64,000 bases of DNA from Sipunculus nudus (Eukaryota; Annelida; Sipuncula; Golfingiida; Sipunculidae): contig CM049308.1 in NCBI GenBank assembly GCA_026874595.1, positions 78,850,124-78,914,123 on the forward strand, read 5' to 3'. The position numbers and the translations under genes were made by a program. Positions 17,143 through 64,000 of this stretch are shown piece after piece (the stretch's first letter is position 1; every line of letters starts with the position of its first letter). Under the pieces are notes generated by a model, which did no database searches, was not told the DNA's origin, and saw only the letters and a program-made list of their open reading frames with translations.

Positions 17143-17361
17143 ATGGACTTAGTTGTGGACCTGTTTGTTATGGACACTTAAGTGCCACTTCGAACTGTTG
17201 GAGTTAATGTACCTTTGATGATTTGTACGTGTAATATATATACCTGAGCCATTATTGAATGTCATGTGTCATACCGTTTAGTATTGTATTAAGTAGTCTA
17301 TCCCAGGTGTTATTAGTGTATTTAAAATGCATTGTCCCATGAACATGCATTGGGGCCGGGA
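17143..17361 (+). other. 3' untranslated segment and polypurine tract of BEL/Pao element
   Basis: 219 bp between the Gag-Pol stop and the 3' LTR. The last bases (TGGGGCCGGGA, 17351-17361) are purine-rich and abut the LTR, the place expected for the plus-strand primer. Confidence 0.8.
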
Positions 17362-24349: not shown

Positions 24350-24897
24350 GCACCGGAAATCGGGTTTTGGAAGTTGGATGTGCACAAGGTCACATAAGTT
24401 TCCTCAGAGTGAATTCGTTGGAATAGACCTTGACCAAAGAAACATTCAGATCGTAACGGAGAAAGCTGTAGCCGAAGAATTGAGTAACATGGATTTCGTT
24501 GCCATGGATATGTACACGAAGCCCATTGACTGGACAGGAAGGTTAGATGTCGTCATCAGCAAGAAAACGATTCACAACTTGCCATATGTCGTAAACGGTT
24601 TGAAGGAAGTGCATCGTGTGCTGACACCTGGTGGTCGCTTTCTATTGCTGGAAGCAGCGGGGCACTCATATCGCTGATAACATTAATGATCCTGGAATTT
24701 TGTTTCGCCAGGCAGGCAGTTTATCGCATTGTATGCCTTCCTCCCTTTTTTATGAAAACGGGGACGGTGTCGGGATGACATGGGGACAAGAGAAGTTGAA
24801 TTCAGATGTGGAAGAGGCTGGTTTTGAAGTGATCTTCGAGGACAACATTTCACCAAGAGGGAGGCTAGTCGTATCCAAGCCTGCTGAGAAACCATGA
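24350..24897 (+). pseudogene. Methyltransferase copy B, last exon, two frameshifts
   Basis: The exon starts after ATTTTCTAG with codons for TGNRVLEVGCAQGH. A deletion near 24391 removes the LAMIMAKRF part and shifts the frame. The next part (SEFVGIDLDQ to LLLEAAGHSY) is open, and a 2-base deletion near 24664-24675 shifts again before NINDPG to the stop at 24897. It matches copies A and C outside these points. Confidence 0.82.
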
Positions 24898-25159
24898 ATA
24901 CCAATCCTTAATTAAAAAAATTATAAAAATACATTCAGCAATGTTTCAATATTAGAATAATCGGAAATTGAACATTTATACATTTATATATGTAAATAAT
25001 TATAACCTAAGACTTTCCTTACATTTCTGACTTTTTGCTTGATCGTATTTATGTATTTGGTTGTAATATATCAAATAACTTTAGGTTCACTATTCTAATA
25101 GTTTTCCAACAGTTGCTTCAACATTCCCCTATTGAAAATCCCCTTGAAAATAAATTGAT

Positions 25160-40053: not shown

Positions 40054-40424
40054 GTGGGTCGTCAGACAACATTTTAGGGTGGTTCTCTCTTCATTTAATG
40101 CCCTACTAGCTCTAGCTGTGAAGCACCCTCGGAACATCTCAAAATTTTAATCCCACTCCATGAGTTATTAGCCTGCTTTTGGAGAAGTAGACCAAAGGGT
40201 GAGCGGGTAGTCAGTATTTCAGACTGCATTTAATCCCTTTTCGCAGACCAGCTTTCCACTGGGCATCCTATGTGCATTCGCATGTGCCGAGGAATCCGTA
40301 CGGACCCAATTTGACAAAATGTATCATTTTTTCCATCATACTTGTACATATACTCCGATTCCGTGACTTATGTTCAATCTGCCAGGTAATCTGACTCAAA
40401 GGTCGGTTGTTCTTGCCTAATTGT

Positions 40425-40832
40425 TGCCATCTCTCGCATTTTCGCCTTGGCCTATTGTTGCCAATCCTGGCTTTTTCACCTCGACCCATTGTTGCCACTC
40501 CTCGCTTTTTCACCTCGGCCCATTGTTGCCACTCATTACTTTTTCACCTCAGCCCATTGTAGCCACTCCGCGCTTTATCACTTCGGCCCATTGTTGTCAT
40601 GCCTGGCTTTTTCACCTCGGCCCATTGTTGTCATTCCTGGCTTTTTCACATCGGCCTATTTTTGCTATTCCTGGCTTTTTCACCTCGGCCCATTGTTGTC
40701 ATTCCTGGCTTTTTCACCACGGCCAGTTGTTGTCATTCCTGGCTTTTTCACCTCGGCTCATTGTTGCGACTCCTCGCTTTTATACCTCGGCCCATTGTTG
40801 CCATTCCTCGCTTTCACCTCGGCCCATCCATC
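40425..40832. repeat. 34-bp minisatellite, short array (about 12 units)
   Basis: Units such as CCATTGTTGTCATTCCTGGC plus TTTTTCACCTCGGC match the large array at 20800-23935 and sit in the same intron, directly before the exon beginning GACCTGTGTTTCAAG. The array was therefore present before the gene duplication and has grown in copy B or shrunk in copy C. Open frames across it are artefacts. Confidence 0.95.
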
Positions 40833-42489: not shown

Positions 42490-45400
42490 TTAGCGAACCT
42501 GTGAGCTTATGCGATGGTGTGGCGTCGTCCGGCGTCCGTCGTCTGTACGTTAACCCATACTATCTTGAAAACGGCAAGAGTTAGCATTACAAAATTTTAT
42601 GCAAAATATTAGTCATCTAAAAAACTCCATCGGATTTTGCTTATTTTTTGGCTAACTGCATTTTCTTAGATTTTATAGGGAAAAAAGCTTAAAAACCTTT
42701 AAAGATCTTCTCCTCTAAAACTGTTCAGCCAAATTGTCCAATATTTCACAGAAATGATCCCTGGAACAATCTCTCTAAAGATTTTTCAAATGGTTTAAGT
42801 TTGGTGATTTTTGGCCGAGTTACAAGAAGTTAAACTTATCCATCTGTCCAAAAAAGCATACTAAAATTACAATCTCAGAAACTGCTGGAGCTATCATCAC
42901 CAAATTTTATGGGAATGTTTGTCACATGAGTCATATCTGAAATTGAGGTATTGGTGGCGCCACCTGCATCAGCCTTTTTTGTACGGGGGTCATCAGTGCC
43001 CTTATCATACTGAGGGCTACAAAAAACTTCTTCTCTGAAACCATATGGCCAAATTGTTTAATATCGCACAGAAATGATCTTAGGGTACTGGCTGAGTTAT
43101 GGGAAGCTGAATCTAGCCATATGCCATGACAGCCCATTTTAGCTCAGTGGCTAAAAAGATCTTCTTCTCAAAAACCACTAGGCCAAATTCTTAAATCTCA
43201 CACATTAATTATCCTTAGATGTTGATAATTCATGTTTGTTCAAATGGTTTTGGTTCAGTGATTTTGGCCGTGTTATGAGAAGCTTAACTTAGCCATTTTT
43301 CTGTATTTTTCTATAAGAGTTATAAACCTGCAAAACATTTTTGAAGGACACAACTGAGGCTAATTTGTTTAATATTTTACAACGACTTGAGCTAGCTTCA
43401 TGAAATTTAATGTAAAAAATTAGCCATATGAAAAACTCTGCATTTTCTTAGATTTTATTGAGAAAAAGCTAAAAAATTGTTTACAATCTTCTCCTCCAAA
43501 ACTGTCAAGCGAAATTGTTCAATATTTTAAAGAAATAATCTCTTATACCATCTCTCTCAAGTTTGTTCAAATGGTTAAATTTGGGTGAATTTTGGCCGAG
43601 TTACAGGAAGTTGAACTTAGTCATCTGTCTAAAAAAGCATACTAAAATGACAATTTCAGAAAAGGCCGGAGCTTTCATCACCATATTTTATGCCAGTGTT
43701 GGTCACATGAGTTATTTATATGAAATTCAGGTATTGGTGGCGCCACCTGCCTTGACCTTTTTTTGAACTGGGGTGATTGGTCATCTGTATATTAACCCAT
43801 AATTTCTCAGGAATAGCAGGAGCTACCATCCCCAGATTTTATGCAATAATCTCCCACATATCAAATGTTGTGGAATTCAAGTTTTTTTTTTGTTATCTGC
43901 ATTTACTTAAATTTTATAGGGAAAAGGCTGAAAACCTTTAAAAGTCTTCTACTTGTAAACAGTCCAGCCAAATTGTTCAATATTTTACAGAAATGATCCC
44001 AGAGGCAAGCCTTCTAAAGTTTGTTCAAATGGTTTGCATTTGATGAATTTTAGCGGAATTACACAAATTTGAACTTATTCGGCCAAGTAAGCATAATGAC
44101 ATAGTAATCTCAGAAATGACAGAACCTAGCATTACCAAGTATTGTGCAAATGTTGGTCACATGACTCATATTTGAAGTTGCAGATATAGTGTTGCCACCT
44201 ACATTGACCTGGTTTTTATTTGCAAAAACTTCATTATTTTAACCTCTTTCAGCTGATAATGTTTATGATGAAACTGTCAAGTTTAATCGTTCAGTTTTTC
44301 AAAAGAATTATCCTAGGACATGGTTCTTTCAATCATATAAGAATAGATTGAGTTTGTTGATTTTTGGTTGAGTCGTGAAAAGCTTAAGTTGGTCTTATGG
44401 CCATCATTATGTCTCTTTCAAACTAAGGACTGCAATAGTGTTCTTCTACCAAATTGTTGTTTAAATTATAACTTCTGTGACATTGCACAAAAATTATTTT
44501 TAGATGGCTTTTGTTCAAGTGTACTTGAATGATTTTTTGCAGAATTGTTGGACCTTTAGCAATGAAAGAACTGCATCTTTTATTATTATAGATATTTTTG
44601 GTAAAAAGTTTATGAATATGTCAGCTTGAAAAAAAAAGCATTTTAGCCAAAGTCATTCAGTATGTGTAAACAGATTGACAAACAGGCAAAGATTGTGTCT
44701 GTATCATTAAATAGGTTGAAAAACTGCCAACTGTTTCAGATTTTCCAACAGATCAAGAGTTCATTCAGTGCAGCCAGATATAGGTCAAGAGTTCAGTCAG
44801 TGCAGCCAAGCACAGGCATGTGATCACTGCATGGGTGTCATGTGAACACCTCATGGCCAGCATGTGATCACCTCATGGGTAGCAAGTGATCACCTCATGA
44901 GTATCATGTGATCACCTCATGGATGTCATGCCCCTCAGGGCCTCATGTGGAGCCAATCTGTGAGCTTATGCAATGATTTGGCTACTATTTCAGATTTGGC
45001 AACAGGCCAAAGGTCAGTCTGGATCTATTTATAGCTTTGGCAGACTGCCAAATGTATCAGATTAGGTAACAGGTCAAGAGTTCACTCAGTGCAGCTAGGT
45101 ACAGGTCAAAAGTTCACTCAATCTAGCTAGTTCACTCAGTGCAGTAGCTGCATTCTATTTATAGCGTTGGTAGACTGCCCACTGTGTCAGATTTTGCAAC
45201 AGGTCAAGAGTTCACTCAATGCAGCCAGGTACAGGTCAAAAGTTCACTCAGTCTAGCCAGGTGCAGGTCGCGAGTTCCCTTAGTGCAGTAGCCTGAGCTA
45301 GCAATTTGTCACAGTTCACTTGGGGCAACTGCCTTTCTCACCTAAGCCTGGTCAGCCCCATGCATCAGACTCAAGGTAAGTCTGATGTATTGGCCTGATA

Positions 45401-45800
45401 TATTTGCCTGTCTGTGATGGCTTTCTTGTTGACAAGACAGGTGTCGCCACCTACAATGACTTTTGCACAATGTCTGTGCCTCCTTATTTCTACAGAGGAA
45501 TTTGATATAATCAACCTGAAATTGGGCATATTTATACATATCGAATAGCTTTGTCATATACAAGACTGGTGGTGCCACCTACAATAATTTTTGCAGTGTT
45601 TCCCTGCTTATTTTTTTCAGGAGGGGTTTGATATATCAGTCTGAAATTGGGCAAATATATATATCTCTGATAGCTTTGGTGTATACAAAACTGGTGGTGC
45701 CAGCTTCAATCATTTTTGTGTTGTGTGCACCCATATGAGAATTTCAGCAGTGATGATTGTGTAATTGTTTCTTATTCAAAATGTTTAGTACTTGCATTGT
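42490..45800. repeat. Long diverged tandem repeat region before the last methyltransferase exon of copy C
   Basis: Units share TGTGAGCTTATGC, AAACTGTTCAGCCAAATTGT, CAAATGGTTTAAGTTTGGTG and GGCGCCACCTGCATC-type segments. They recur near 42700, 43040, 43500 and 43960, and in weaker form (GGTGGTGCCACCTACAAT) near 45430, 45570 and 45700. The last part is duplicated at 1-1450. The repeat with the CGTCCGGCGTCCGTCG head is a common type in mollusc genomes, to my knowledge. No gene is supported. Confidence 0.7.
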
Positions 45801-45908
45801 TCATATACATGAAAAGAAATGGTCCAGTATTGAAGAATTATACCTGGTGTATTTCCCAATGCACAGGTTCGCATTAGGCCTGTAGGCCTTGTTATTCTTA
45901 TTTTCTAG

Positions 45909-46494
45909 AAACCGGAATTCGGGTGTTGGACGTTGGATGTGCACAAGGTCATTGGCCATGATACTGGCCAAAAGGTTTCCTAAGAGTGAATTCATTGGAA
46001 TAGACCTTGACCAAAGAAACATTCGTATCGCAAGGGAGAAGACGGAAGCCGAAGAACTGAGTAACATGGAATTCGTTGCCATGGATATGTACAAGATGCC
46101 AACTGACTGGACAGGAAGGTTTGATGTCGTGATCAGCAAGAATACGATTCACCACTTGCCGTATGTCGTAAAAGGTTTGAAGGAAGTGCGTCGTGTGCTG
46201 ACACCTGGTGGTCGCTTCCTGTTGCATGAAGCAGCGGGACACTCTTATATCGCTGGTAACATAAATCATCCTGGAATTATGTATCGCCAGGCAGGCAGCT
46301 TACTGTATTGTATGCCTTCCTCCCTTTTTTATGAAAACGGAGACGGTGTCGGGATGACCTGGGGACAAGAGAAGATGAAGTCAGATGTGGAGGAGGCTGG
46401 TTTTGACGTCATTTTCGAGGACAACATTTCACCGAAATGGAGGCTGGTTATGTCCAAGCCTGCTGAAAAAAAAACCATGAATACAGATCCTTAA
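45909..46494 (+). pseudogene. Methyltransferase copy C, last exon, single-base frameshift
   Basis: It has the same acceptor as copy A (TTTTCTAG at 45908). The exon opens with TGIRVLDVGCAQGH. One base is missing in GGTCATTGG near 45950, after which the correct frame (AKRFPKSEFIGIDLDQ, DVVISKNTIHHLPYVVKGLK, RVLTPGGRFLLHEAAGHSY) is open to TAA at 46494. Copy C has the LPYVVKG part that copy A lost. The C-terminus is extended (KKTMNTDP) because one base differs from copy A at the stop. Confidence 0.8.
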
Positions 46495-48556
46495 TAGGAG
46501 AATTATAAAAATACCTTTAACAATGTTTCAATATAAGATTAATCGGAAATAGAACCTAGGTTCGGACGAAATAATTATATTCTACTGTTATCGTCTGGAA
46601 ACATTGACATTGAGAATCAACCGTAGTGGTCACCAAGATTCAGTGTTCAGAACAGTGTTGTCTTTGTCACCAGTTGATATTCCTTTTAGGCTGACGTCAG
46701 TCTCAGAATGGTACAGGACAGAGAACTCGTCCTGCAAAATCGTAGGAAAATTTGAACCGCCATTAAACACCAAGGAAAGGGTTCAATGTAACTGATGTAA
46801 CAATGTTCAGTGTAACTGATGCTGTTTAAATCTGCCTACTTCTTGTGTTTACGTCCATATTATGACTTGTAAGCATAATGCATGGATCAATTGATGAAAG
46901 AAAGACGGATGCTGCATTCATCAACGACATCAGTTAATGACAAAACCTTCATCAGGAGCAAGAAACCTACGACTACAGATTAACTCGAGACGATGCAATT
47001 AATTATGATGCTGAATTTAACTGCTTTATTAATTGTTAAATGATATGTAACCATATGAAGAGATGAATGAAATGTGTCTTTTGTTGATAACTCGGACAGA
47101 TGATCAAATTTTAACAGCATGATCTATCAAATCTGTTGACTGATTACATTTCATAGACATTATGAAGGTATGGTTTACCCTATTTGTAAACGTATGTTTG
47201 AATATATTATCAAAGAAACACGATTTATTATGGGATTTTGATTATTTATTACATTGAAATGAATATAACGGTATTAGAGTTGTCTAGTCAGCAGAACCTA
47301 TAATATACTATTGCCTGAACATGGCTAAATATTGTTTTATAACCCCCTCTTCACATAAATAACAATCTAACTGATTTATTATGGGCGTGCTCGTAGTGTA
47401 GACCCTGCATATTTCGCGCCCTTGCATATCAAAACAAAGCAAAATTTTTAACTATATGACCTTGAATCTTCTAATTATACAGGAGGACTTTGAATAATTT
47501 CCTTTAAATTATGTCACTGCGACATATATTCTTTGAGTTATGGGGCCTAATTAGAATACGAATCATTTAAGAATATGCATGAATTGCTATGATTCTTCCC
47601 ATGCATATGGATCATCATTAGTTTCATCATTTCGAGGCTGTTTTTTTCTAATCTTACGCATTTTCTTCTCTAATTTTAAGACCTTCAAATGAAACAGTCT
47701 GGAAGTTAACAGGGCATAAATTGTAATTTCTTAGTAAACATCTAAGGAGGTCTTAGGCATCTCTTCATAGAACCATAAATACGGTAATCATTAGGGCTGT
47801 ATCATTATACCGATATAACGATACCCAACATCGATACTGTTAGCGATACGCTTTGCTTGCTGTATCGTCGTATCGATGAAACACAATTATTGCTAACAAT
47901 TGTAGATACAACCCTGACCTAAATACCATTAATATGAACTTTTTATACAGCTTACGCTACTTTTGTATCTTATGTTGGCCTTTAAGATCGCATGTATTGT
48001 CGCATGATCGATTAAATTAGAGATGTATGTACACGTCGAAGCATCCGTGACAAGCCGACGCGTGTGCGCGATTGTAGATGGATGTTGCGAACGGTTCTCG
48101 TTTGTGCTGAAATCGATGCCCATTTGATATAATTCTACCATTAAAATATCTATTGCATATTTTTGTTCATCCTTGTTCTCAGTAAGGCATGCTTTCCATG
48201 ATTTTATCTCTGACTGGGGATTTACCTTTGGTAAATCATCTGTGGAAAAGGAATGGAAAAATTACAAGATTGAAATAATAATAGACAATATTAATACCCC
48301 ATAAAGATATCAGATAAAAAGACAAAGGAGATATAATGTGTCTGAATATATGATATCTTATGCAAACTTAGAAACGGAAGAGTTGACCCATCATTTGAAA
48401 TGAGTACCTACAAACCCTCAAAGTGAACACTGCAGCATAGAGATTATGGCGATATGTGCCTCGAGCGGTACAAATGAATATGCCAACATAATATATATAT
48501 ATATAGAAAGGGTATACACAGAAAAGTGGTTCACTGCCACTTTTGATGTAATAGTG
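46495..48556. other. 3' flank of methyltransferase copy C; no gene seen
   Basis: It matches 2115-4228. The left palindrome arm is at about 48505-48536. No gene seen. Confidence 0.6.
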
Positions 48557-49231
48557 CACAGCGGTTAGTAATAGCCCTGTGTTGCATGTTTAATGCTACA
48601 GCTGGAGTTGCTGGTGTATCAGGTTCCCACTTGAGACACCAACAGAGACTGGAGGCTGGTCTCCTAGCAACAGGGTGTTTCAAAATGGCCGCCATGCTTG
48701 ACAACAGACTGACTCTGTTGATGTTAATGAGTGATGATGTGATTAAATGGGGTATAAGTCTGTGGTATTTGCCTCCAGGGGTAATCCCATCAATCAGTCT
48801 GTCTGATAACCCTAAAGGTCATAGGGTTCAAGTCATACCGGTCACACAATGTTGTGGTGTACTGTGTTGCTATGGGTAAAGGCGGGGGATAAGAATCCAG
48901 CTATTTGTAAGTTCATTTTTTGATGAATGCCATTTTTTATTCACTAATGTAAAATACCAATGGAAAGGTAAAGTTCTGATTAATTAATGAAAGTTGATAA
49001 ATTCACTGTGTCAATTTTAATTTTTAAGATATGATACCCTATTATATGCATGTGTGAGCCACATTGTGAGTGCATGTTCTAGGCTGGGCACTCTTACTCT
49101 TACAGATGCTGATGCTGTGCTTTTGTTATAACCATAATAATCATAAATATTGACAACAGGAATCATATTTCTGTATTTGTTAACTTGGATTTGCTTTAAA
49201 AATTTTATTTATCAAAATTTTTATATTTTAT

Positions 49232-49289
<58 letters not shown>

Positions 49290-49323
49290 ATATAATATAA
49301 AGTTCATGGATCAAATTTAGTTC
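48557..49323 (+). promoter_or_regulatory. Candidate left end and 5' region of the RAG1-like locus
   Basis: This sequence has no counterpart in the partner duplication and starts exactly where the match ends, at CACAGCGGTTAGTAATAGCC. CACAGCG differs by one base from the vertebrate RSS heptamer CACAGTG, and the first 25 bases begin CACAG and end CTGTG. A YY1-like AAAATGGCCGCCAT box is present near 48683. A (TA)n tract lies at 49236-49300 just before the gene. Whether this is the terminus of a transposon is inference: no matching right terminus was found. Confidence 0.4.
49236..49300. repeat. (TA)n microsatellite upstream of the RAG1-like gene
   Basis: Alternating TA grading into TATAA repeats, ending about 24 bases before the predicted start codon. 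Confidence 0.93.
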
Positions 49324-50469
49324 ATGGAGGGCACATTAGACTTTCATCTTCTTGCATTAGCTGATCTTTGTAGAATTTGTGGGAACAAGGCCCAGTCTAA
49401 AGCTGAAAAGGTTAAATACAAGCCCATCCTGTGTGTAGATAATTTTCAAAGGATACTTGATACATTTGAAATTGATATATCAACAGATCACTTGGATGTA
49501 CACCCAAAACATATTTGCAGGCAGTGTTATTTTAAACTCTTCAATCAGAAAAGAGATTCTGCCCATGCTGAAGACAGAGCAAAAAAACTTAAAAATGATG
49601 CCCAAGAAATAAATACAAATTGGTTACCCCATAAAAGGGGAACAATACAAAATTGTTTCACATGCAAACAACATGTTGTAATGAAGAAAAAGGGAAGGCG
49701 TCCTACTCTCAAAAGAGGGGCTCCAAAAAGGATTCCAGATAATTTAAAATTTGACCACAGGTCACTCAACATATTTGAAGGTGGAAGTGATGAAATCATG
49801 GTGCACAATGCCATAATTACTGGGTTAGATGACACACAAAAACAGTTTTTCCATTGTCCTTTATGTACAGAGGTTTATTCCACTAATTCTGTTGCTGGAG
49901 AATGTGGGCATTACTTTTGTTCACACTGTTTAAGTGCGGAGTTTTGTAATGCTCTAACTAATACACTGCCATGTCCTGTATGTGGTGCGGATATAGATTA
50001 CAGTAATGTGCACCATGCTGACAGCAGATTTAAGGAGCAGATTCTTGCTTTACAATTGCAATGTAAATTATGCAGTGCAGTGTCTACTACTAAAACACAC
50101 GTGGCTCACACATGTCATTCTGATCAAGATCACACAGTAGCTGATCTAAATACTGAAAACAGTTTTGATGACATGGAAAATGCATGTAGTATCCCTCCGA
50201 GATCAAATTTTTCCCCTGTCACCCCAGTCTTTAAGCCAAGTATCACAAGTACACCACTAGAATCACAAACTAGTAACCGTGTGCAAGTCTCAATGGCCAT
50301 TCAAACCTCACCTGGCATAATGCCACTGACTGTTGAGCAGAGTGTAAATAAAAGTCTTCATGAACCACCACTCAAGGAAGAACAGAAGCTTTACACCAAG
50401 TTGACCAAACGCATGCTCAATTTCTCAACAGAAAAAGGTACTATTCGCTGCAAGAACAAACGTGGGCAG
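49324..50469 (+). CDS. RAG1-like gene, exon 1: zinc-binding N-terminal region
   Basis: 1146 bp, 382 codons, phase 0 at the CAG/GTATGT donor. It contains DLCRICG and HPKHICRQCYFKLF, which resemble the short Cys-rich segment before the RAG1 RING (LCRICG...FCHNCW in vertebrates). The RING reads FHCPLC, then GECGHYFCSHC, then LPCPVC. LQCKLC followed by HVAHTCH is placed like the extra zinc finger that completes the RAG1 zinc-binding dimerisation domain. A basic stretch (KKKGRRPTLKRGAPKR, about 119-137) may be a nuclear localisation signal. The start is the first in-frame ATG. Confidence 0.85.
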
Positions 50470-53400
50470 GTATGTGTTCTTTTTTTATAAGTGTTTGTTC
50501 TATGTTACATAAAAAAAAACTTAATTTTCATTACAAAATCAGCATTTAAGTTCTGAACATTCATTCATTTTAAGAAATGTATGTTTTTAACTACTAACAT
50601 GTAAGGACTCTACGCAAAATTGAAATGGAACTCCATTCTTTGATAAATATTAATGTTTGCTTATCTGCATTGTAGCCCATAATTCTGCATAAAACTGTTA
50701 TTCCAAGGAAAGCATCAGTAAAAGCACCTTCACGTCTAATTAAGAGAAGGGCTGCTGCCATTGGAAAAATAAGGGCAGTGATGGCAGGGAAAGAAGGGGA
50801 ATGCAGTGAAATTCAACAATCAGCTGAACTTAAAAAACTGAGTAGAGGGACGAGAGAGTCTGTGTGTTCAAGAGCTGGAATTGTTCATCGTGCACGGCTC
50901 AACAGATACACCAGTTTGGCAATGAAAACCAGTCTCGGTCTAAGCTGGCGTCAGATGCGAAAACAAAAAAGGTGAATCTCAAAAGCAAATCAAATTAATT
51001 CCTCCTTTGAATGTAAAAGTTTCTTTTTATATTTCATACATTTTTCTTTAAATATTAACCAGATAGTTTCAATGTTTTCTTTGTTCATTGTTTGTTGTTC
51101 TGTTTAACAAAGAAGATTAAAATTACAGGTTTCTTAAAGCTGCTGGAGTTAGCCTCGAGAACGAACATGAAGAAAGAGCTGCCAAAGACAACATTATAAG
51201 TGATCATCTCAAGGGAGAACTGACTACATTAACTGAAAGAGATGAAAATAATCCAAACTGTGACCGGAATGGGCTTGTAGAAAAAAAAGTACCGTATGTG
51301 TATGTTAAGGATTTGAAAAAGTTTGTGGCTGAGCTCCTAAACAGATACAACAGGTAACAAGAATTTTTTTACGTTTAATTAATTGATTTATGGTAAACGT
51401 CTTCTTGATTTAATTAGTATGTTATTCTTGTAAAATATTAGGCAGCTATGCACAATTTATTAAATATGATATGATAGTCTGCTAAAAGAATTCACTAGAT
51501 AAAATCAGTTAATAATTTGATATTTACAGCCAAGGAGTATTGATATGGAGGGATGGTAAAATGCCAGAGGATGAAGTATGGGTGAAAATTGGAGGGGATC
51601 ATGGCGGAGGGAGTATGAAATATACACTGCAAGTCCTCAATATAAAGGAACCAAATTCTAAAACCAATACATTTGTTATTGGTTGTTTTGAGGCAAAAGA
51701 TAACCATGAAAACCTTCGGCGAACCATATCGGTAATGAAACCTGGAATATCTCAGCTTGCCTCTATGACTTGGAAGTAAGTAATGTTCATAACATTTAGT
51801 AAAACTGCAGATTTCAAGTTCCCAAATTTACATTTTCCTTCTCATGAAAAAGTATTTTCCACACACACATTTTATTTATTTTCCAGTGGCAAAAGGACCA
51901 GAGTGTTTGTTCAAGGTGATTACGACTTCCTTTGCAAACTTTATGGCTTGTCTGGTCACAACGGTGAGTAAATTTATTTTTCTTGTGTGTATAAATGGTA
52001 ACATATCCTTCTGCCTTTATTTATATTATTGATAAATATATAGAGGCCAGTCATTTATATATTTTTATTTTTGTTTACACAAGGTGTGTATCCGTGTTTG
52101 TGGTGCCTCATAAAGAAGCCGGAATTACAGGTCAAACGTTCACTTCGTGAACCTTCACAACAGCGCAAGTTGTCACAACTCAAGCAACACAATCTGTCAT
52201 TTCAAAGGATGGGTAAAGGAAAAAAGTCCAAAGCATCACTGTTCAAGAATGTGATACATGCACCATTATTAGACATCTACATCAGCCAGGTAAATACATG
52301 TGTCCATTTGACTTTTATTACAATATAGGTATAAATTTAAATATCATCCTTGACAGCTGTGACTTATTTTTAAATTTCTTCATCAGGTATCTCCACCGTA
52401 TCTCCACATCCTGCTTGGTGTGGTGAAGAAGCACCACGACATGCTTGTGAAGGAATGTCATGAGATTGATCTAGCGATTGCCAGAAAGTGGGCACAAGAT
52501 GGTCACTCTGTAGAAGGCACATCCAAATATGATACATATGTACAGCAACTAACCACAATCAGCAGACTGGATATCGAGGCTACTGATATTAGAGGGCAGT
52601 TGTTAGAGACACAAGGGCATGAAAACATCCCATTGGCCAGAATGCAGGCAAAACTAAAAAAGCTGGAGGGTCAGTTGGAAGAAATTGTAAGTGGCGATTC
52701 TCTATCCGGATGCATAAACTGTTGTAATTTATTTATCAAATGCCATGTTTATGCCATGTATATGCCAATAAATAAATAAAGATTTTTTTTATTCAGATCA
52801 GAAAAAAAAAACACCCTGGAGAAAACCTTGAAGTTGGATGTATATGCTGGACCTGTAGTCTCAAATTTAGATGTAATCCTGCAACAGCATGCCATCAAGG
52901 TACAAGCCTACCATAGCCACAGTCTGGTTGGAAACCATTGTAATAAGTACCTCAAGGTAACAGTTTTTATGTTTCAGATTTTATTAAAAAAATTATATTT
53001 GTTTGCTCGTTTATAAATAAATAGAGGTATTAATTGAATACATCTCATATTTCTCTTCCAGAGGAACGTTTACCAAGACCTCTGTGACCAGGTTGTCAAA
53101 AAAGTGGAATCTTTGACATCAGACATCCTGATAATAATAAGAGCTGCGATTGCAGCCTTCACCTTCCAGACTCTGAACAGGCGTTTTGCTGCGGTACACC
53201 AAGCAGTGTCTAGCGATGGAGTACTGGGAGAAAATGATTGTACCATAATTGGTAAGTAGTTTTCACTATATTAAGACACACACACGCACACACACACACA
53301 CATATACATATATTTATACATATATATATATATAATGATAGATTGTATATAATAATAATAATGAATATAATCAATATTTCTTTTCACAGAGAAAAGGATC

Positions 53401-53691
53401 AATGCATACATGGGCTACTACAGAGGTCATTTCAATGAGCATGTGATACCAAAACAGCATTTCCTAGAGGATCACGTGGTGCCATGGATAAGAAGATGGG
53501 GGTTTGGTATGAGCCTGCATTCCGAACAAGGAGGAGAAGGAGTGCATGCCATGATGAACTGTCTGAAGCGAAATACCTGGGCAATGAAAAATCCACTGAA
53601 CAGGATCATTTCTACGGTTAAAGAACAACACGCTATGTGTTCACCTGAACTACAGGCACAAGTGCCACCAGTTAAAAAGAGGAAACAATAA
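49324..53691 (+). CDS. RAG1-like transposase/recombinase gene, 10 exons, about 1048 codons, one frame break
   Basis: Exons: 49324-50469, 50676-50971, 51129-51353, 51530-51775, 51887-51963, 52084-52289, 52387-52686, 52797-52956, 53062-53251, 53390-53691; all introns are GT-AG, 97-206 bp. The protein has LCRICG (C16/C19) with C65/C68, then a C3HC4 RING at about 177-225, then a Cys/His cluster (about 240-262). In the core, VKIGGD (D579) and GDYD (D651) fit RAG1 D600 and D708. PCLWC (C668/C671) fits the RAG1 CxxC, and HFLEDH (H972/H977) fits its HxxxxH. SEQGGE (E994 or E998) fits E962. Phases agree at every junction except exon 8, where A10 (52802-52811) is one base too long. RAG1-type proteins cut DNA as DDE recombinases in the nucleus. 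It could be a transposon gene (compare N-RAG-TP of Aplysia) or a domesticated copy. Confidence 0.83.
51530..51963 (+). CDS. RAG1-like gene, exons 4-5: catalytic aspartates
   Basis: Exon 4 (51530-51775) encodes VWVKIGGDHGGGSMKYTLQV and NHENLRRTISVMKP. Exon 5 (51887-51963) encodes RVFVQGDYDFLCKLYGLSG. By position and context D579 and D651 are the first two members of a DDE triad. RAG1 has CDGMGD and GTGYDEK at the matching places. The split AA/T codon across the intron keeps the frame. The remaining part of the RNase H-like fold lies in exons 6-10. Confidence 0.8.
52797..52956 (+). pseudogene. RAG1-like gene, exon 8 with a one-base frame break
   Basis: 160 bp between ATTCAG and GTAACA. Exon 7 ends in phase 0 and exon 9 begins in phase 0, so this exon should be a multiple of three, but it is one base too long. 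Read in phase 0 it meets TAG near 52912. Shifted by one base after the A10 run it is open to the donor, with LDVYAGPVVSNLDVILQQHA. The lesion is therefore placed in 52802-52811. It could be real, or a base-count error in the homopolymer. Confidence 0.75.
53390..53691 (+). CDS. RAG1-like gene, exon 10: zinc H2 and catalytic glutamate
   Basis: The terminal exon encodes KQHFLEDHVVPWI and, 17 residues after the second histidine, SEQGGEGVHAMMN. The HxxxxH spacing equals that of RAG1 H937/H942, and the SE..E block fits the RAG1 SEGNESGN segment containing E962. The C-terminus is short (KKRKQ, possibly a nuclear localisation signal). The stop is TAA at 53689-53691. Confidence 0.82.
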
Positions 53692-53849
53692 TTCACCTTG
53701 TACACTAAATACGCAATACTGAGGAAGTTTTTTAAGAGATTAGTAACAAGCAACCATGGATTGGGACATGAGTATTTTGATCAAGTGTCTTTTGAAGTTT
53801 TAGTTATAAAAAATGTATCATCTTCCTCAATTATATATTCAGGTGGTAC

Positions 53850-53910
<61 letters not shown>

Positions 53911-54932
53911 CAACAGATGTTTGATCAGATTGACCTAGCAGATTAGGTATTTTTATCTGATTGAATGTATCAACTTTTTTATTCATATATTTATTCATAT
54001 TTATTCATTCAACATACAACATTAAGAAAGTGTGATTAATTATCACGGAATATAATTAATGTAGCGCACATGTTTGGTTAAACAAACGAGTAAACAACTC
54101 ATCAGTGACAGCTTTGATCACCTTGTGATGACGGTCACCAAAAAACAAGGGCACGGATTACCTGATCAGTGGAGGTTTCAGGTGTGAGAATCCCCTTTGA
54201 TATGGTGGTTTCTCTCGGCTTGCCTAAATCAAAGAGACCTTATTCAGTTGACTGTGAAAGCTGCCGGTAAGTATCGCCCACTGATGCGTTGGTAACAAAC
54301 AACCGTATTTATTTAAGAAATGTATTTATTATTTTCTTTATTTTGTCTGATATTATGTTTATGAAGCACATCACATGTTTTATTTTAAGAGAAACGTGTG
54401 ATGTTTGTACTTCTCACTTTACAAAATGTGTCATACCAGCGGCGTAGCATGCATGACTTGTGTTCACAAGCGGGCCGACATGTAACCTCCCCGCAAATAC
54501 CCCTGGCCCAACAATAAACTATAAACATTCCCCAAAAAGGCACGCTGATATGCAAATCGTCCGCAGTGTAATAATTACAAATTTTAAATGGTGTATGTCG
54601 ATCGTATTTTTCACATATTTTTATCTTGTCATGTTTAATATTCCGTATTACTGAAAAAGAATATACAATATTGCGGTCGTCCTTCGCTTTCGCCAGGCGT
54701 CCTGACGGGTAACCTAAACGACACTGGTCACGCCCAGTTCAACGATGAGCTAATAAATTCCATTTTCATTCTCCACATGATACCAGTTGTATAAAAATTA
54801 TTATCAAAGCAAATTGGTTCCAATATAAATAATATATTTAACAAATCTCGCTGACAAACATACAACATTAAGAAAGTATGATTAATTATCACAGAATATA
54901 ATTAATGTAGCGCACATGTTTGGTTAAATTCC
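53692..54932. other. 3' flank of the RAG1-like gene with (TA)n and a 75-bp direct repeat
   Basis: A (TA)n tract lies at 53852-53908. CATACAACATTAAGAAAGTG and the following 55 bases (about 54012-54085) recur with two or three changes at about 54860-54932. I searched by eye for the complement of the proposed left terminus (CTATTACTAACCGCTGTG) and did not find it. No RAG2-like kelch ORF on either strand. Confidence 0.6.
54012..54085. repeat. Direct repeat, unit 1 (partner 54860-54932)
   Basis: About 74 bp, ending GCGCACATGTTTGGTTAAA. The two copies are about 850 bp apart with unrelated sequence between them, and both are downstream of the RAG1-like gene. They may mark the ends of an insertion or a local duplication. 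Confidence 0.8.
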
Positions 54933-55400
54933 GACTACAGTCCGGTTAATTTTGTTTTCTGAGGATAAAAATATAAGAATCAAATAAAAATAGTCAGTAT
55001 ACACGGAATATTCAGATAAAGATTTTTATAAGGATCAAAATATATTAAATTTTCATATTTGTTCAACGTATGGGAAATATATTACTGTTTTTATTTTGAA
55101 TGACATCGTAATTTATTACTATTTTAATGCCGTATTAGGGTTTATTATAACATATTTATTATTCAGTGGTGCATCCATAGAGGGCGCAAGCCCGTTCAGA
55201 CGTAAAATCTCTCATTTTACCGAGTTATTTTCCAATTATTTCGTAATTAATTTTCCTTTCTTTTTTAGATTACTTTTTTTTATTCCCCAGCAATTTCATT
55301 ATTTTTACTTTCCAATTCATAAGTTTGTGATTTACTCCACTATGAGAGCATCCAAATATAAACTAATATATTGAGGAATCCCCCCCCCCCCCCCTTATCG
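54933..55400. repeat. Dispersed duplicate, partner 37938-38480
   Basis: It begins in the same AAATTCCGACT and ends near the C-run and CGCATTACCGTG at about 55400. It is shorter by several small deletions. Confidence 0.75.
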
Positions 55401-55414
55401 CATTACCGTGCGAG

Positions 55415-55535
55415 TCATGCACGGTCTCCCCACAGAGCTGAGCTGGGGGTGGGATCGACCGTGAAAAATCTCACGCCTCCTCGGCTGATACTCAGACTCA
55501 CGCACTGTGCTCTGCTGCCCGAGCCTAGGCGCTCA
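55415..55535 (-). mobile_element. Candidate tRNA-derived SINE, minus strand
   Basis: Read on the minus strand it starts GAGCGCCTAGGCTCGGGCAG with an A-box-like segment, continues GTGAGTCTGAGTATCAGCCG, and then has CGGTCGATCCCAC, close to the B-box consensus GGTTCGANNCC. The spacing suits a pol III promoter. The non-tRNA body and tail are not clear. Confidence 0.55.
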
Positions 55536-55559
55536 CAGATCACAAAAGTCGGTCAAATG

Positions 55560-56624
55560 CAATGATTGTCATAAGATTTAAACATATTAATTATTTGACA
55601 ACGAGTACTACCTTTAAATAGTGACATTTTGAAAGTTATAAATGTATAGACGCGCGTTTCATTATTGACATTAACATGTAACGAACTTTTGAATATTTGG
55701 ACTTTCCAGTTTATACCGTAATTTTATAGAAATATAAATATTAAAGCCCAACAACATCAGGTTTGAATATATTGTTCAAAAACAGCTCTCATTGATCTGA
55801 TTCTTGGCCCTATGCCAGAACGGGTGTTATCAGACCAACGAGAACGGGTGTCGCATGTTCAAAATTAGGGCTGGATGCACAATACATTATTAGTGGTCTC
55901 ATTACAATTATATTGAGCGGCATCTTATCTTGTCAAGAATAAACGTATGTTACACTTAATGTCTTCAGATAAAACAGTTCCCATTTCAGTACAACAGTTT
56001 ATATAAAAAAGTATACATTAGCTACCACTTTGATGAAAACACAGCAGTTACTAATTTAAGTGATGGCGAGAAGGAAAAATCCGTTTCTCTAAAGAAATAC
56101 ATACTCATATGGGTACATGGTTTTAAATAATTTCACAATTGAGAAAACATATGTATGATGAGCAATCCAAATTTGCCAGATGAATAAAGATTGAAATGTT
56201 ACGATAATAACTTTGATTAAAACTGTTCTCTGAATTACATATATCTTTTTTAAGTGACTGTGTTCTTTTAGGTATAATGCTTGTGTATAATAATGCGTGT
56301 GTGCACGGACGGAGGAGAAAAAAACTACCATTTGTTTATGTTTACGGGGTGTGATGTTAGTGCTTGGTATTCAAGTGCTGTTATAACCAGGTATATATAT
56401 ACAGAGACACATATCGAACCATTATCTATGATCAGTGGACTCTGTACATCTTATTCAGGCCAACAGGTCAATACAAGCGGCCAGTGTGAGGGTTAATACT
56501 TGATTATAATACACGCCGTATTTCTTTCTGTGTGTAATTAGTAGGTTATGGCCAAAGAGTATCACATATAACGAACAACAGTTCTCGTCATGAAAGTCAC
56601 GAACTTGTAAATCGTTTTTAGCTC
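55560..56624. other. No gene recognised
   Basis: AT-rich spacer with short ORFs lacking domains. Confidence 0.45.
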
Positions 56625-57610
56625 AGCTGACCTTCAGTCATGCTGGGCTATAGCGATGGGTCTTTGTCCGTCGTCCTTCCGTCTGTCCGTCCGGCCGGCC
56701 GTCCGGCTGTCCGGCCGGCCGTCCGTCCGTTAGCAGGGCACAAATCGTAACCGTAGGGGCTAGGGCCATGAACCCTATGCAGTCTTAGAGGTTATAAAAA
56801 GATCTCCTTGCAAACCTGAAATTAGGTCACTGCGACCTATATTCTCGAAGTTATGGGGTGTGTTTGCACCCCCCAGAAATAACTCTTTGAGACAAAATTT
56901 TCATCCCAAACCTTCATCTTTCACATACAGCTCACCTACCAACAGGGGAAGAACCATAATTTTTTTTAGGTCAAAAGGTCAAAGGTCAAGGTCACAGGAG
57001 CCTCTTCTTTGAAAAGCCTGTGGATGCATTTTAAGCCAACCCTTTCATCCCAATTCTTTGATTTTTCACATATTGCTCACCTACTAAGTTGGAGAAGAAT
57101 CCTATAGATTTTGAGGTCACAAGGTCAAAGGTCAGGGTCACAGGATCCACTTCTTTGAAAAGGTTGTGGACACATTTCAAGCTAGACTTTTCATTCCAAA
57201 CCTTCCAGCACTGATATCGCTTCTCTGCCAACAGGGGAAAAGACCTGTTGATTTTGAGGTCAAAGGTCAAGTTCACAGCACCCACTTCTTGCGTGGAGTC
57301 ATTTTCAGGCAAACTTTTCAATCTCTACCTTCCATCTGTCATATATGGCTTACCTACCAATAATGGAAGAAGCCTATTGATGTTGAGGTCAAAAAGTCAA
57401 AGGTCAAGGTCACAATATTTAATTGTTCTAAATGCTTGTGAGCATATTTCAAGTGTAACTGTTCAACCCAAACCTTCAGTCTTTCACATATGCCACATCT
57501 ATGCATCACTCAGTTTGACTCAAACTTCATATTTATGGGTCTTTATGCTTGAATAAATAACTTATTGATTTTGGGGTAAGCTGGTCAGCAGGTTAAAGGT
57601 TGCAGGTCAA
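56625..57610. repeat. Dispersed repeat with GTCCGTCCGGCC head and about 140-bp GGTCAAGGTCA units
   Basis: The head (TTTTTAGCTCAGCTGACC, then GTCCGTC/GTCCGGCCGGCC runs at 56670-56730) is followed by AGGTCACTGCGACCTA (about 56820). Four or five diverged units follow, with AAAGGTCAAGGTCACAG near 56980, 57120, 57260 and 57390 and a TCCCAAACCTTCA-like segment between. This is a familiar non-coding repeat architecture in mollusc genomes. The short ORFs inside are artefacts. Confidence 0.7.
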
Positions 57611-59597
57611 AGTTATTCACCCATTGGTTGCCAAGTAATTACACCAGATTTAAGTGGTTAGTAGTTACCCATCATTTAGAAAGAATCAAGTTGATATATT
57701 GGCAAAAGGCCAAGGTCATAGGTCAGGGATGTTCACAATTACTTATTTTAAAGACCATCTCTATTTTTCTTGTATATATAACCATCCCACTCCAGCTGGT
57801 ACATCTCCCTGTGTGGCTGTAATTGTGAGTGACACTGGTGACATATGACTCCCTTTTGTATCAGCCTATTAAGTGATAAGGCTCAGTGATAAGTACCTCG
57901 TTATTTCATAACAAAAACACTGTTGTCAGGATGATTCAGCCAGGCATTAAGACTATGAGAGTATAGTATTAAGGTTTAGCTACTGATTTATAAGATGATG
58001 GGAACATTTTGCAGTTTATTTTATGGAATCCTAGCAATAAACTTAGTTTCCTAGATATCTGAATATTTTAATATATATCACCACATATAAAAGCAAGTGT
58101 TTGTTCTCATTATATGTGGATGTGTACCTTGATTTAGGATGGCTTTTTGTTTTATTTCAAGACTCTTAGTCATGCTTTCTGCATTTCTTTTCTTTCAGGT
58201 TTGGCAGTTTACCTACCCTGCTGACCCCATTGAAAAGCAGAGTGATAATAAAAAATATTGGACTTACACTTTTTACAATTGCATATCTATAAATCTGATA
58301 TGAGGGCCTGGACATGCCTTTTGAATTATTTTGGGCATTCATTACTGGATAATTTGCCCCAAGTTTGGTCTCCTATTGGAGAATGTGGGATATCAAATGA
58401 CATACTTGTCAGAAATCCATTATGTCTGCCAGTTAGCCACCTAAGAAATTCTTTCTTCAGTGCAGTTTCAGTAATTTTTCTTTTATGTTTGGTCCGATTT
58501 AGGGAATGTTCTTTGTCTGATTTCAGACTTGTCAGAAGTCCAATATGGCCACCAGGCAACCATCTTTTAATTCCTTTTGATCATATTATCTCAAGAACAG
58601 TTAAAGTGAATGCAGTTGGATGTATATTTATGTAATCTTGTAAAGGATTGGGTCAAATATTTCTGAATAAATATTACCATCATTTATAAAAGTGCAGTAC
58701 AGTTGGCTTGTATTGAATAAAAATTCATACAGAAGCACCTGTTTCTCAATAATTCTTGCATGTATTTCCTTGATTTTTGCTATATATTTTGATCTTATAT
58801 TTTCCCTTTGTGGTGTTCCTTTGAGACTGACAGGTTTCAAGCAAGCTGTTGGAATAGTTCCTGATAGCTTAACAATCATGCATTTTCCTCAGACCATCAA
58901 TTCACTGTGTTTTAACCAGACATAGGTGATGTATATTTCTGTTGTCATAGAAAATTTTTAACAAATTGGCAAATTGGTTCTTCAAAATTTGACTGGAAGT
59001 TGTGAATCTCAGTCCATGATGTCACAGGTCATGCTTGGCTGCTGAGCGTCATAACCCATGGGTCACTTGTTGTAACTGCTGTCATCTCTCATAATCGTCA
59101 CTGGTTCGATCTCCCCCAGGGTCTAATGCAGTTTTAATTGTAGTTAGAGTATCCCTATATAACCTGCCATGAACAAATGGCTAACAAAATGCTAATGATA
59201 AGATGTGCAGTCGCAGCCTACATGGATCCCTCCGATAGTATCCTAATCTAACTCTCTTTTGCTCTGTACAGTGACTTGTTTAACTGATATGCGTCACACG
59301 CTAGCTGCAGAACAAATGACCCGACACCTGCCGGGGCAAAGGAGTAAATAATATTACAATGGTATACAATCCTTTGAACTGAAAACATATTAGAGCGGTC
59401 CAGATAAAAAAAAACACTTATGGATTGTTCCTTAGGTGTTACCATAGCCTTAACGTTTTGTGTAAAGTTGCAAACAAACAAACAAAACAACCAGCCAAAC
59501 AACCAAAGGGAAAACATAATGCCTTCTCCAACTTGCGGAGGTATAATAAAGTTATGTACCCAAAACCATTTTAAGAGCCAAACCTTATCATCCTATT

Positions 59598-59599
<2 letters not shown>
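57611..59599. other. No gene; weak internal duplication near 58400-58560
   Basis: ACTTGTCAGAAATCCATTATG (58403) and a related ACTTGTCAGAAGTCCAATAT (58528) mark two diverged units of about 125 bp. Otherwise nothing identifiable. Confidence 0.45.

Positions 59600-59631
<32 letters not shown>
59600..59631. repeat. (GA)n microsatellite
   Basis: About 15 GA units. The ORF across it encodes an ERERERE run and is not a gene. Confidence 0.93.
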
Positions 59632-59635
<4 letters not shown>

Positions 59636-61700
59636 GACGAAAAGGATATGTTTAGGTCATACCAAGACTAACACTTTAATAATCAATGACAAACATAAGA
59701 AAAAGGAGAAATGACTATGGTTCTGGTTTCATATTTAATTTAAAGAAACGAACATTAACTATCGGGGATGTGTTGCTGACTAATTGCATTATCCTTAATA
59801 AAAGATAAATATATATCATATATTGTATATTATTTATTATTGTTATTGTTACAGGTATTATATATTTAATTTGACTAACCAGTTACTCAGTTAGTGACCT
59901 ATATGTTTATAGGGACATGATACATCATTAAGTTAATACTGTGCAAACAGGAGACAGCGGAAACTCGAAATCTGCATTCTAACGAATGCAAGCCTCCGCC
60001 ATTCACTTATTCGGTCCATATTCCCAGATTCATTTGTTCATTTATTACTGTATTTGTGACTATTTCTTGATGGCTTTCCTGGATCCGGATCATGTGCAGA
60101 AAAACCAAAATATAATATCTTCTTCCTTGGCCAGTTCCCGAAAAGATATGAAAATTTCATAAGATTCCATTCAAAATGCGTGAGTTTTGTTGCGAACAAA
60201 AACACAGACTACAGGCCGGTGAGACGCAGATTTTTGGGACGTAGGCCGCCGGGACGTACCCACTGAAGCGTATCCCGATAGGACGTATTGTTAAAATAAG
60301 AGTACATGTATCACTTGTCTGACTGTCTAAACTTTACACGTACTAAAACAAAAAGACTAAGTAATAATAGTTAATTATACTTTCGTTAGTAAACCCTCTC
60401 TTGGGTCACTTTGGGAAATCATACAAGCTCTGTGATCGATGCAACATACGTCAGATCAGCACACGTTAATGCCTAGTATATCTGTGTTGTCCATTATTAC
60501 TATATTACCCTCATGCACTTATATCGTTGTGTTCCTTAACTGAAGTCTGACAAAATATTTAGTAATTTTATTGTTAATTAGAGCATTATTTTGGCTTAAA
60601 GTACGACTCAATAGTGATAAACTCCGGGTATGGTCAACCCATCAGCGTTCTCCAATTTATTGGCCTAACCAGAGGTTTAAATGACTGATAATTACAGGTT
60701 TAACGTGTAACATCTTACTTTATTTTCCATATTCCTGTTATAATTTTCACTATTATAAGTATGTATATCATGTCGTGAGAACATATTAAGTCTGCTCAAA
60801 CATGAACGAACTGCTCACCAGAGACCAGCGAAGCCGCAGTATAAACGCGGTCACGAGAAACCATTCACCCGACGCGGCCAATCGTACAGTTCAAAGGATG
60901 AACCTTTAATTAACGGACGAAAAATGTCGATCAAAGGTTTCTGGATGATGAATCATTTATATTGATCTCTTACACGTACTTAATGTATTAAGGAAAGAAT
61001 AAATATTTACATATTTTGATTATATTCGACTTCTGACAGGACCACATTCCGAATAAAAGACATTATAAATGGACAAAAATTTTATGACAAAAATAACTTT
61101 ATAAAATAAAAAATTAGGTTGGTTGTTATTTTGTTAACATGAAAATACTACCTGTGAGTAGTATTCAGTTAGTATCATCCGCTCTGGCGCAATCACAATC
61201 GCATACGAACGGAGATGAACGCATACCCTCCTGGTGGAGGCAATTATGAAACAACAGAACAAACAATCGGTGACAAGGTTTAATTGAAATGGCAGCACAT
61301 TATGTAGCGATCATTACCTCACTGTAATGGTAACCCTCACAAAATGAGACAAAAAAAGTCCCAAATGTTCTAAAATTTTAGAAGTTTTACTATTTATTTT
61401 ATCACAGGCATTAAACATAGAAAAGCTTAAGCATATGGCATATTAACAACATAACAAGGGTATAACTAGGAAAGTGATATCATACTTATATACGAAATCT
61501 GAGAGGATTTTTGTTACTGAATTCGACACTCCTACTTCGTTCGACCATCGACTTAATTCATTACCATGAAAGGTTTTGATTTTTTTTTGTGGTTAGGGTT
61601 TGAATAGGGCCGGAAATATGACAGATATTTCCTCCGAGGACCTATTCCAAATAGAAGCCGAACTAACGCTTATTGGATGACCGCTCTCGGTCATAAATTA
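59632..61700. other. No gene recognised
   Basis: AT-rich DNA with no supported ORF, splice pattern or repeat. A locally GC-richer patch at 60215-60290 repeats GGGACGTA-type words without clear structure. Confidence 0.45.
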
Positions 61701-61704
61701 TGTA

Positions 61705-61800
61705 CATGGGCGGACCCAGGATTTAGGAGAAATAGGGTGCAACCCACGAAGAATACTGACAAAACCTGATAATAAGGTAGCCAGGTCAGGTATAGGTCCC
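61705..61800. repeat. Relic of the GCGGATCCAGGA element
   Basis: GGGCGGACCCAGGATTTAGG followed by GGGTGCAACCCAC is a decayed relative of the left part of the element at 63788-63985 and of the relic near 7072. Confidence 0.55.
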
Positions 61801-62885
61801 TTATCCGCCACAGAAATACGGCATTGGTTTGTGTCTCATACACTTGAGTGCCACTAAAAAATATTGAGTTGGTGTGTCGGGACACGGAGCACTAAGCAAC
61901 CCGGCCCCCCCCCGGGCCGCGCAAATTACGAAGTCAACTCGTATCAAATAACCAGGTAATTGTTGTACGCGGCAAAGTTTGCTGCACTTAAATCTTTGGG
62001 CCATTGTTACAAGGGGACTGTTATTGGATTTAAACTAGCTTTATTTGTTAGAGATCATGGGGGCAATCTGATAATGGTCTGCCCCATGCCGGTCTAGCGA
62101 GAGTGCCTGTGTTGTGTAGTTTTGGTTTCTGTGTCATGGCTTGTCGATTGTATTGTATGGATACAGCCATACGACCCCTAGTGATTTGTTACTGAGAAGC
62201 ACAAGAACAAATGAGCACAAGGTAAGTTGATTTATGTCTAGTTAAATGTCCATGTTCCTTGTTTTATATTATACTTGCCTAATCGCTTACACATGCAGAG
62301 TCCGTTTAGACCTACTTAAGTCTTCATACAGACATCATGTGGGCTAGGAAAGCACGTATACAGTTAGCCCATAATAATGAACTCCTCAATTGCTTTTTTT
62401 TCAGTGACTGACGCATTGTGGAGTCCATAGATTGCACATGCAGTTAACTGTGATTAAATCACTCCATACACAACTGTGAGATTTAACATATATCCATTGA
62501 TTAATGTTCAGTACATCTATGTGTATTGTATATTTGACCACTGGAAAACATAACTGTTCTGTTCTCAGCCCTATTTTGCACCAAGGAAGTTGAAATATGA
62601 ACATAATAGTACACAGGCCTAAAGCCTTATACAGGACTGCCACCAAATGCAAGATGTCTGCGGGGCTGTTAATGCTTCAGTTCTCTCTGGACAAATACTA
62701 TCAGTTGCTGATGTTACAGGTGCTCCATGCTTTCCAGAATGGTTATTTTTTATAAAAGGCCTTTCGACTTACATCATTATGTGAACATAGGTTTGCTAAA
62801 CCAAAGGAAATATTTTTATTTAATTTTCTTTCTAAGAGTAACATATCGTATCGTGCTATAACCCCAGTTAGCCCTTCGGTGGGCC

Positions 62886-62922
62886 GGCGACGCAACAGAA
62901 ACCTGAAACCTGTTGCGTCGCC
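62886..62922. repeat. Perfect 13-bp stem hairpin
   Basis: GGCGACGCAACAG (62886-62898) and CTGTTGCGTCGCC (62910-62922) form a perfect stem with an 11-base loop. Weaker pairing extends outward (CCTTCGG...GTCGGCGG). It is much more GC-rich than its surroundings. Confidence 0.85.
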
Positions 62923-63787
62923 GTCGGCGGCTAGTATACAGTGTTTCAGCCGTGTGACTTTACGCTCCCGAGACCATGGAAAGACAAGCACATCTTGCTC
63001 TGTCTATACGCTGCCAGGTTTACTGGCTATTGACGGTTCTGACTCAAGATAGCGGAGAAACATGACGGAAATGCATCTTGCGTATCCTTACACAGCGTTT
63101 ATGATTAACCACTTGCAAAGTTGTGCCAAATTGCCAGGCGGGTCGGCTTATCGCTGCATTGCTACTGTACTTCCAATGTTGTACTAAATTACCTCTCTTA
63201 AGGTCGGTTCATGGTTGACTCTGACTCTACTTCATAGTCACACAAACAAGGAAGTGTTTCTGTGTTTACACACTAGATCATCTCTTGCGTTAGCCAAACA
63301 CAGCGTTTAGCAGTTGGCTGAACTTTTCATATCACATTCTCCTGGCCAAACCAGTTAACGATCCATAAAACCATGCTTGTACAAAGCACTGATATTAAGC
63401 GCTAAGTAAAGGAATAATATGTCAAAATATGATGTTTCCTCTGTACTCCTTTCTACCTGTCAATATTATTCCGAAATGTGTCCGAAAGGGATTATACTTA
63501 ATAAACAACAACCTCTAGTGTTTGCATTTAGAAGAATACATGAAGCGCTTTTTTGGTTATTGTCATGGCGGTAGATCATATATCATACAGCATACTTATT
63601 TTATCATATACCAGTCCACCGTGCGTTACGTGTGATTTCTAATGCTGAACTTTTCACTAATAATCTCAAACTTAGTGATGTTTCCCAACCTGAAAATTAA
63701 TCAATAATTTTGGAAAAGAAAACAATTATTCATTGCGGCGTTCGAAAAGATATGGAGCATGGGTAATAAATATCGTCTTGTATGCCC

Positions 63788-63985
63788 AAGAGCGGATCCA
63801 GGATTTTGGAAAGGGGAGGGTCCAATCAAGCAAGCAACATGCATATAAGAGGTCCTCTGATCCAGAACGGGAGGGGTCCAGGCTGGAAAATCTGGACAAG
63901 CTGAAAACCCCCGACCTACTCATTCCATTCCCCCCTCCACCGCCCCACATCTCCGCCACCCCCACCCTCCCCCGGATCCGCCACT
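63788..63985. mobile_element. MITE-like element with GGCGGATCC inverted ends
   Basis: The left end reads AGAGCGGATCCAGGATTTTG then AAAGGGGAGGGTCC. The right end reads CCACCCTCCCCCGGATCCGC then CACT, the rough reverse complement. About 200 bp long and without coding capacity; the short ORFs in both strands are artefacts. Relics lie near 7072 and 61705. The class and target duplication are not determined. Confidence 0.6.
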
Positions 63986-64000
63986 GACGCATAAACTGTT

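Follow-up and report, generated by a model that had tools for sequence, protein, structure and literature searches.

A ten-exon gene with a RAG1-like layout in Sipunculus nudus lies in what is very probably a truncated Chapaev-type DNA transposon

The DNA analysed here, referred to as the window, is a stretch of 64,000 nucleotides from Sipunculus nudus and was placed at C3:78850124–78914123 of the 1.43-Gb assembly. On its + strand, at 49324–53691, lies a ten-exon gene whose predicted protein resembles RAG1 throughout its length. The gene is real, and it very probably belongs to a Chapaev-type cut-and-paste DNA transposon that is present in multiple copies, this copy being truncated at its 3' end. 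The RAG1-like layout of such transposons has already been described, so that the locus serves well as a test case but does not amount to a discovery of its own. A search of the open-access literature brought up no paper on this locus or on an intron-rich Chapaev lineage carrying the Chapa zinc region and a RING finger.

Results and discussion

Copies, termini and insertion site

Two near-identical copies of the window gene occur elsewhere in the genome, on C2 and C15. The copy on C2 is complete (L021 1012–7280, 6,269 bp): it starts with CACAGCGGTTAG, ends with CTAACCGCTGTG and has CATT on either side, so that the CA..TG termini and the short target duplication of Chapaev are both present. Chapaev transposons make 4-bp target duplications. 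The window copy has the same start as the C2 copy, with the left terminal inverted repeat CACAGCGGTTAG at 48557–48568 (+ strand) forming the first bases of the element, and extends over 48557–53997 (+ strand), which is 5,441 bp of the 6,269-bp element. Its sequence is 98.8% identical to L021 1012–6448, and window 48742–53997 is 99.2% identical to L022 1198–6449 on C15, the copy without the first 185 bp. Pairwise, the three copies show 6–8 differences per 3,146–3,148 exon bases and 6–10 differences per 1,210–1,220 intron bases, gaps excluded, and the C2 copy has one additional base in exon 1. Counts of synonymous and non-synonymous changes among the three copies were discarded, since codons fall out of register at an alignment gap in exon 1. 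Only C2 and C15 carry the full 681-bp 3' end; elsewhere there are pieces that match it at 73–85%. Since the window copy lacks this 3' end, no inverted-repeat pair is seen around the gene within the window, where only AT repeats and matches at chance level were found.

The 4.2-kb block to the left of the element is duplicated within the window (10–4228 and 44357–48556, 95.5% identity). Similarity between the two blocks extends up to the last base in front of the element, and the upstream duplicate therefore represents the left side of the site before insertion. This empty site (4178–4285, no strand) places the insertion point at 4228/4229, within a small palindromic element; the window copy has lost its right side, and the empty site is shown from the left alone. 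The palindromic element measures 108 bp, has perfect 31-bp arms and lies in an AT repeat of the upstream duplicate, while beside the gene its left part alone is left, at 48506–48556, where the Chapaev copy starts. These 31-bp arms are not taken for the ends of the Chapaev element itself, since they belong to a separate small element whose right half was not found beside the gene in the window. Past the cut end, and outside the element, lies a high-copy repeat (54011–54400, + strand) found at at least 37 other places in the genome. A 72-bp direct repeat (54011–54082 and 54857–54928, 846 bp apart, 97%) was also observed in this adjoining repeat.

Gene model and full-length relatives

All ten exons proposed by the first-pass annotation were found, with GT..AG borders at every intron. 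Exon 1 (49324–50469) contains the entire N-terminal module, residues 1–382, and ends just ahead of the core. It is followed by exon 2 (50676–50971), exon 3 (51129–51353), exon 4 (51530–51775) with the first candidate catalytic Asp, D579 (51597–51599), exon 5 (51887–51963) with the second, D649 (51918–51920), exon 6 (52084–52289) with the CxxC pair C668/C671 (52095–52106) and exon 7 (52387–52686) with the conserved H739 (52405–52407). Exon 8 (52797–52956) and exon 9 (53062–53251) precede exon 10 (53390–53691), which carries H973/H978 (53458–53475) and the candidate Glu residues E995 and E999 (53524–53538); all exons are on the + strand. The Cys/His and DDE (Asp, Asp, Glu) positions agree with those first described.

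Exons 1–7 form a single open frame of 832 amino acids, and exons 8–10 form another of 216 amino acids followed by a stop codon. With the obvious donor and acceptor, the phase between exons 7 and 8 is broken by ten consecutive A that follow the exon 8 acceptor (52802–52811, + strand; the exon starts with ATCAG plus ten A). The window and C15 copies both have ten A in this run, and the C2 copy has eight. The total is about 1049 residues with one X at the exon 7/8 junction, and the 1048-residue protein of the first-pass annotation is thus a fair reading of the gene, although as a product it is putative.

The core matches Pfam DUF1280 (PF06918) with 76.9 bits against a cut-off of 25, a family that has been assigned to Chapaev (PMC3985635). 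Public protein P0002 matches nearly the full length of the query (E = 1.5e-204, 38% identity over 99% of the query), and P0006, P0013 and P0042 cover 99%, 100% and 100% of it. Since single public proteins match 99–100% of the length, chance is excluded as the origin of the arrangement, and both halves occur in one protein. The 47 protein matches include some with mollusc names, Nucella lapillus (P0022, P0030) and Elysia marginata (P0039).

The family across the genome

DUF1280 was detected at at least 32 places in this genome and in none of 14 control genomes. The N-terminal module lies within 8 kb at 30 of the 32 listed places. There are groups whose copies differ by about 1–4%, some by less than 1% of exon bases. 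Fourteen of the 29 remaining listed places (L031–L044) were sampled, plus L045, a relative of the 3' end with no protein match. Core matches were present at all 14 and Chapa and RING matches at 13, L034 having neither of the latter.

Target duplications were sought at 16 loci (L031–L044, L021 and L022), and perfect 4-bp duplications were found at nine of them: CATT (L021), ATAC (L032), ACAT (L036), AGCA (L037), CGTC (L038), ATGT (L039), TGCT (L040), CCGA (L042) and GGGG (L044). The scan gave seven matches with at least 12 of 14 end bases, of which four are at element borders (L021, L032, L040 and L044) and three are noise; the reversed-sequence control gave none in the 16 loci and therefore understates the noise. 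The element ends of L021, L040 and L044 agree with independent BLAST borders, whereas the duplication of L042 comes from the scan alone (11 of 14 end bases), and those of L036–L039 were read by eye at BLAST borders, the two ends having little beyond CACAC in common.

The nine introns and the long conserved reading frame would suit a host gene domesticated from a Chapaev transposase, as would the fact that no element ends were at first found in the window. L040 and L044, however, have an exon layout that, leaving the exon 7/8 border aside, closely resembles that of the window gene, together with target duplications of their own, and the introns are therefore a trait of one element lineage and no sign of domestication. 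Domestication is also opposed by the near-identical copies on C3, C2 and C15, of which the complete one has inverted repeats and a target duplication, by the empty site in the upstream duplicate and by the frame disturbances in all three copies, and it is considered very unlikely.

A still smaller chance is given to exon 1 and exons 2–10 being separate transcripts that lie in line by chance. The N-terminal module is exactly exon 1, and 31 of the 61 N-terminal clusters among the matches listed have no DUF1280 match within 8 kb (strand not compared), as such an arrangement would allow. Both halves are nevertheless united in the single public proteins P0002, P0005, P0006, P0013 and P0042, they run through with few or no introns at L036 and L038, and the module is near nearly all listed DUF1280 places. 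Many of the 31 clusters are weak or decayed; they argue that the module is not invariably tied to a core, and they leave room for true N-terminal-only elements. Long open frames with the N-terminal module, and with no DUF1280 match listed within 8 kb, were observed at C17:24788125–24789282 (413 amino acids) and C5:68748569–68749759 (598 amino acids).

The transposase core

The core of the Chapaev-type transposase shows the motif order Asp, Asp, CxxC, HxxxxH, Glu, as in RAG1, and the core of a relative has a RAG1-like fold. D579, D649 and either E995 or E999 are the probable catalytic residues. According to one account (PMC12730594), the CxxC and HxxxxH motifs are common to a wider transposase group with CA..TG ends and 2–5-bp target duplications. 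Pfam RAG1 (PF12940) gave no match at E ≤ 10 for pieces of the window gene, nor did it come up for any of 19 relatives at E ≤ 0.01; both negatives are to be read with the HMMER filters in mind, which discard most very weak matches. The original description as a RAG1-like gene with a recombinase core thus holds for the layout and the motif order, whereas the core itself matches DUF1280 and not the Pfam RAG1 family.

These features bear on whether the locus could be a true RAG1L (ProtoRAG/RAGL) element with a RAG2L partner. The RAG1-like N-terminus and the RAG1-like fold of a relative would fit, and RAGL elements are known in molluscs (PMC7204232). The window gene shares with RAG1 and RAGL/ProtoRAG the N-terminal zinc and RING regions by sequence, the core fold, as modelled in a relative, and the order of the core motifs. 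Its core nevertheless has no match to Pfam RAG1, the duplications of the complete copy and of the relatives are 4 bp and not 5 bp, and the window protein has no Cx2Cx3GHx4C C-terminal tail, a feature of invertebrate RAG1L (PMC7204232). No RAG2-like gene was found in the parts searched: no Kelch or RAG2 match was obtained in 10 of the 12 minus-strand frames of at least 70 amino acids in 53692–64000, a search that split small exons would escape, and none was seen when the frames in the terminal 1.15 kb of the C2 element were read by eye. A RAG1L identity of this locus is accordingly the least probable of the alternatives, with a minimal chance.

The N-terminal module

The N-terminal module of the Chapaev-type protein comprises, on the + strand, a Chapa-type zinc region resembling the RAG1 N-terminus (49369–49665; C16/C19, C65/C68 and C111/C114), a RING finger of residues 178–220 (49855–49983; Pfam zf-C3HC4, 22.5 bits, cut-off 21) and a Cys/His finger past the RING (50062–50115; C247, C250, H262 and C264). 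This half is related to RAG1 by sequence. RAG1_imp_bd (Pfam) scores 22.3 bits in the window protein, slightly below the cut-off of 23.3, and 30.9 bits, above it, in the relative P0002; it is matched by seven of 19 relatives at E ≤ 0.01. When a profile of the 19 relatives was compared with solved structures, RAG1 chains only were found below E = 0.1, among them an N-terminal RAG1 chain (1.7e-9) and mouse RAG1 residues 99–491 (5.1e-9). The proposed RAG1-like architecture of the N-terminus is borne out by these matches and by the RING above its cut-off, which also provide the Chapa zinc region and RING expected of such a Chapaev. The alignment of the zinc region between this family and RAG1 is loose, and the structure model of exon 1 resembles the RAG1 dimerization domain along its full length, with other RING and zinc-finger proteins scoring no worse. 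The equation of the Chapa region with the RAG1 N-terminus was taken from PMC4411706 in place of a Chapa model; there, Chapa is the part common with the RAG1 N-terminus, and some Chapaev subgroups add a RING.

Exon 1 alone gave no match at E ≤ 0.01 among 1,080 candidate public proteins of similar length, a profile search returned three proteins, one of them new, and 11 pattern matches in viral contigs included no relative. A RING was recognized by pattern in seven of the 47 public relatives. On a core tree (FastTree, midpoint root) built from protein-search matches only, with many fragment rows and two of 49 dropped for short cores, the six RING-bearing rows of 20 need five minimal changes, against a mean of 5.3 for shuffled labels. 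The patchy distribution may faintly suggest repeated loss of the RING, a weak signal because the change count equals that of shuffled labels, the RING was called by pattern and the tree rows are often fragments.

Comparison with known systems and proposed mechanism

The closest parallel is the Chapaev with Chapa and RING of Kapitonov and Koonin (2015; PMC4411706), a DNA transposon that likewise unites Chapa, RING and a Chapaev-type core in one protein; here, a single ten-exon lineage is concerned, with 4-bp duplications and exon layout mapped in one genome, and the likeness is one of description. Transib is without the N-terminal module (PMC4411706, PMC8355894), whereas the window gene has the module and belongs to another sequence family. 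N-RAG-TP of Aplysia resembles it in carrying a RAG1 N-terminus-like module in a mobile element, but is described in PMC8355894 as the N-terminal part only, whereas in the window gene core exons follow a first exon that holds the module; the two are set apart by description.

In the most likely mechanism, the transposase would bind the CACAGCGGTTAG ends, and DNA would be cut and rejoined by the DDE core, with the CxxC/HxxxxH zinc site as its brace; each insertion would thereby be flanked by a duplicated 4-bp target. The zinc region of Chapa type and the RING probably serve in dimerization, regulation or ubiquitylation and not in the DNA chemistry.

Several points weigh against the assignment of the locus to a Chapaev-type transposon. 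The window copy has its left end only, so its own target duplication is not visible; seven of the 16 loci gave no duplication; and, under this gene model, the frame is disturbed in each of the three near-identical copies, so that activity today is at most putative. Against the 4 bp of Chapaev, the wider group is given duplications of 2–5 bp (PMC12730594).

Other features of the window

The duplicated 4.2-kb block, with its copies 44 kb apart, carries a methyltransferase frame (45886–46494; Pfam Methyltransf_31); this frame occurs a third time, in part, at 24330–24973. A BEL/Pao-type retroelement occupies 10209–18421, with a frame of 1946 amino acids (11302–17142) containing Pao peptidase and integrase parts; the two repeats on either side of the frame, 1,060 bp each, share 99.9% identity, and the insertion is therefore recent. 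Tandem arrays of a 34-bp unit with related consensus lie at 20808–23915 (about 92 copies) and 40420–40827 (about 12 copies) and are open in several frames of one strand. No Rfam family or tRNA was found in the window.

Conclusions

Two accounts of the RAG1 N-terminus have been given: an old fusion common to RAG1 and Chapaev (PMC4411706) and a later fusion of Transib with the N-terminus-only N-RAG-TP that gave rise to RAG1 (PMC8355894). The old-fusion account is favoured here, because DUF1280 occurs at no fewer than 32 places of a single genome, 30 of them with the module close by, and because this genome has young copies with mapped ends, target duplications and exon layout. That the whole module lies in exon 1 suggests how an N-terminal-only element could be misread. 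We tentatively propose, at somewhat less than even chance, that the module constitutes exon 1 in an intron-rich lineage of Chapaev, that N-RAG-TP is such an exon seen without its core exons, that no N-RAG/Transib fusion is needed for RAG1 and that the RING is optional, having been lost repeatedly as in RAGL. A family with such very young copies allows the use of the RING to be tested.
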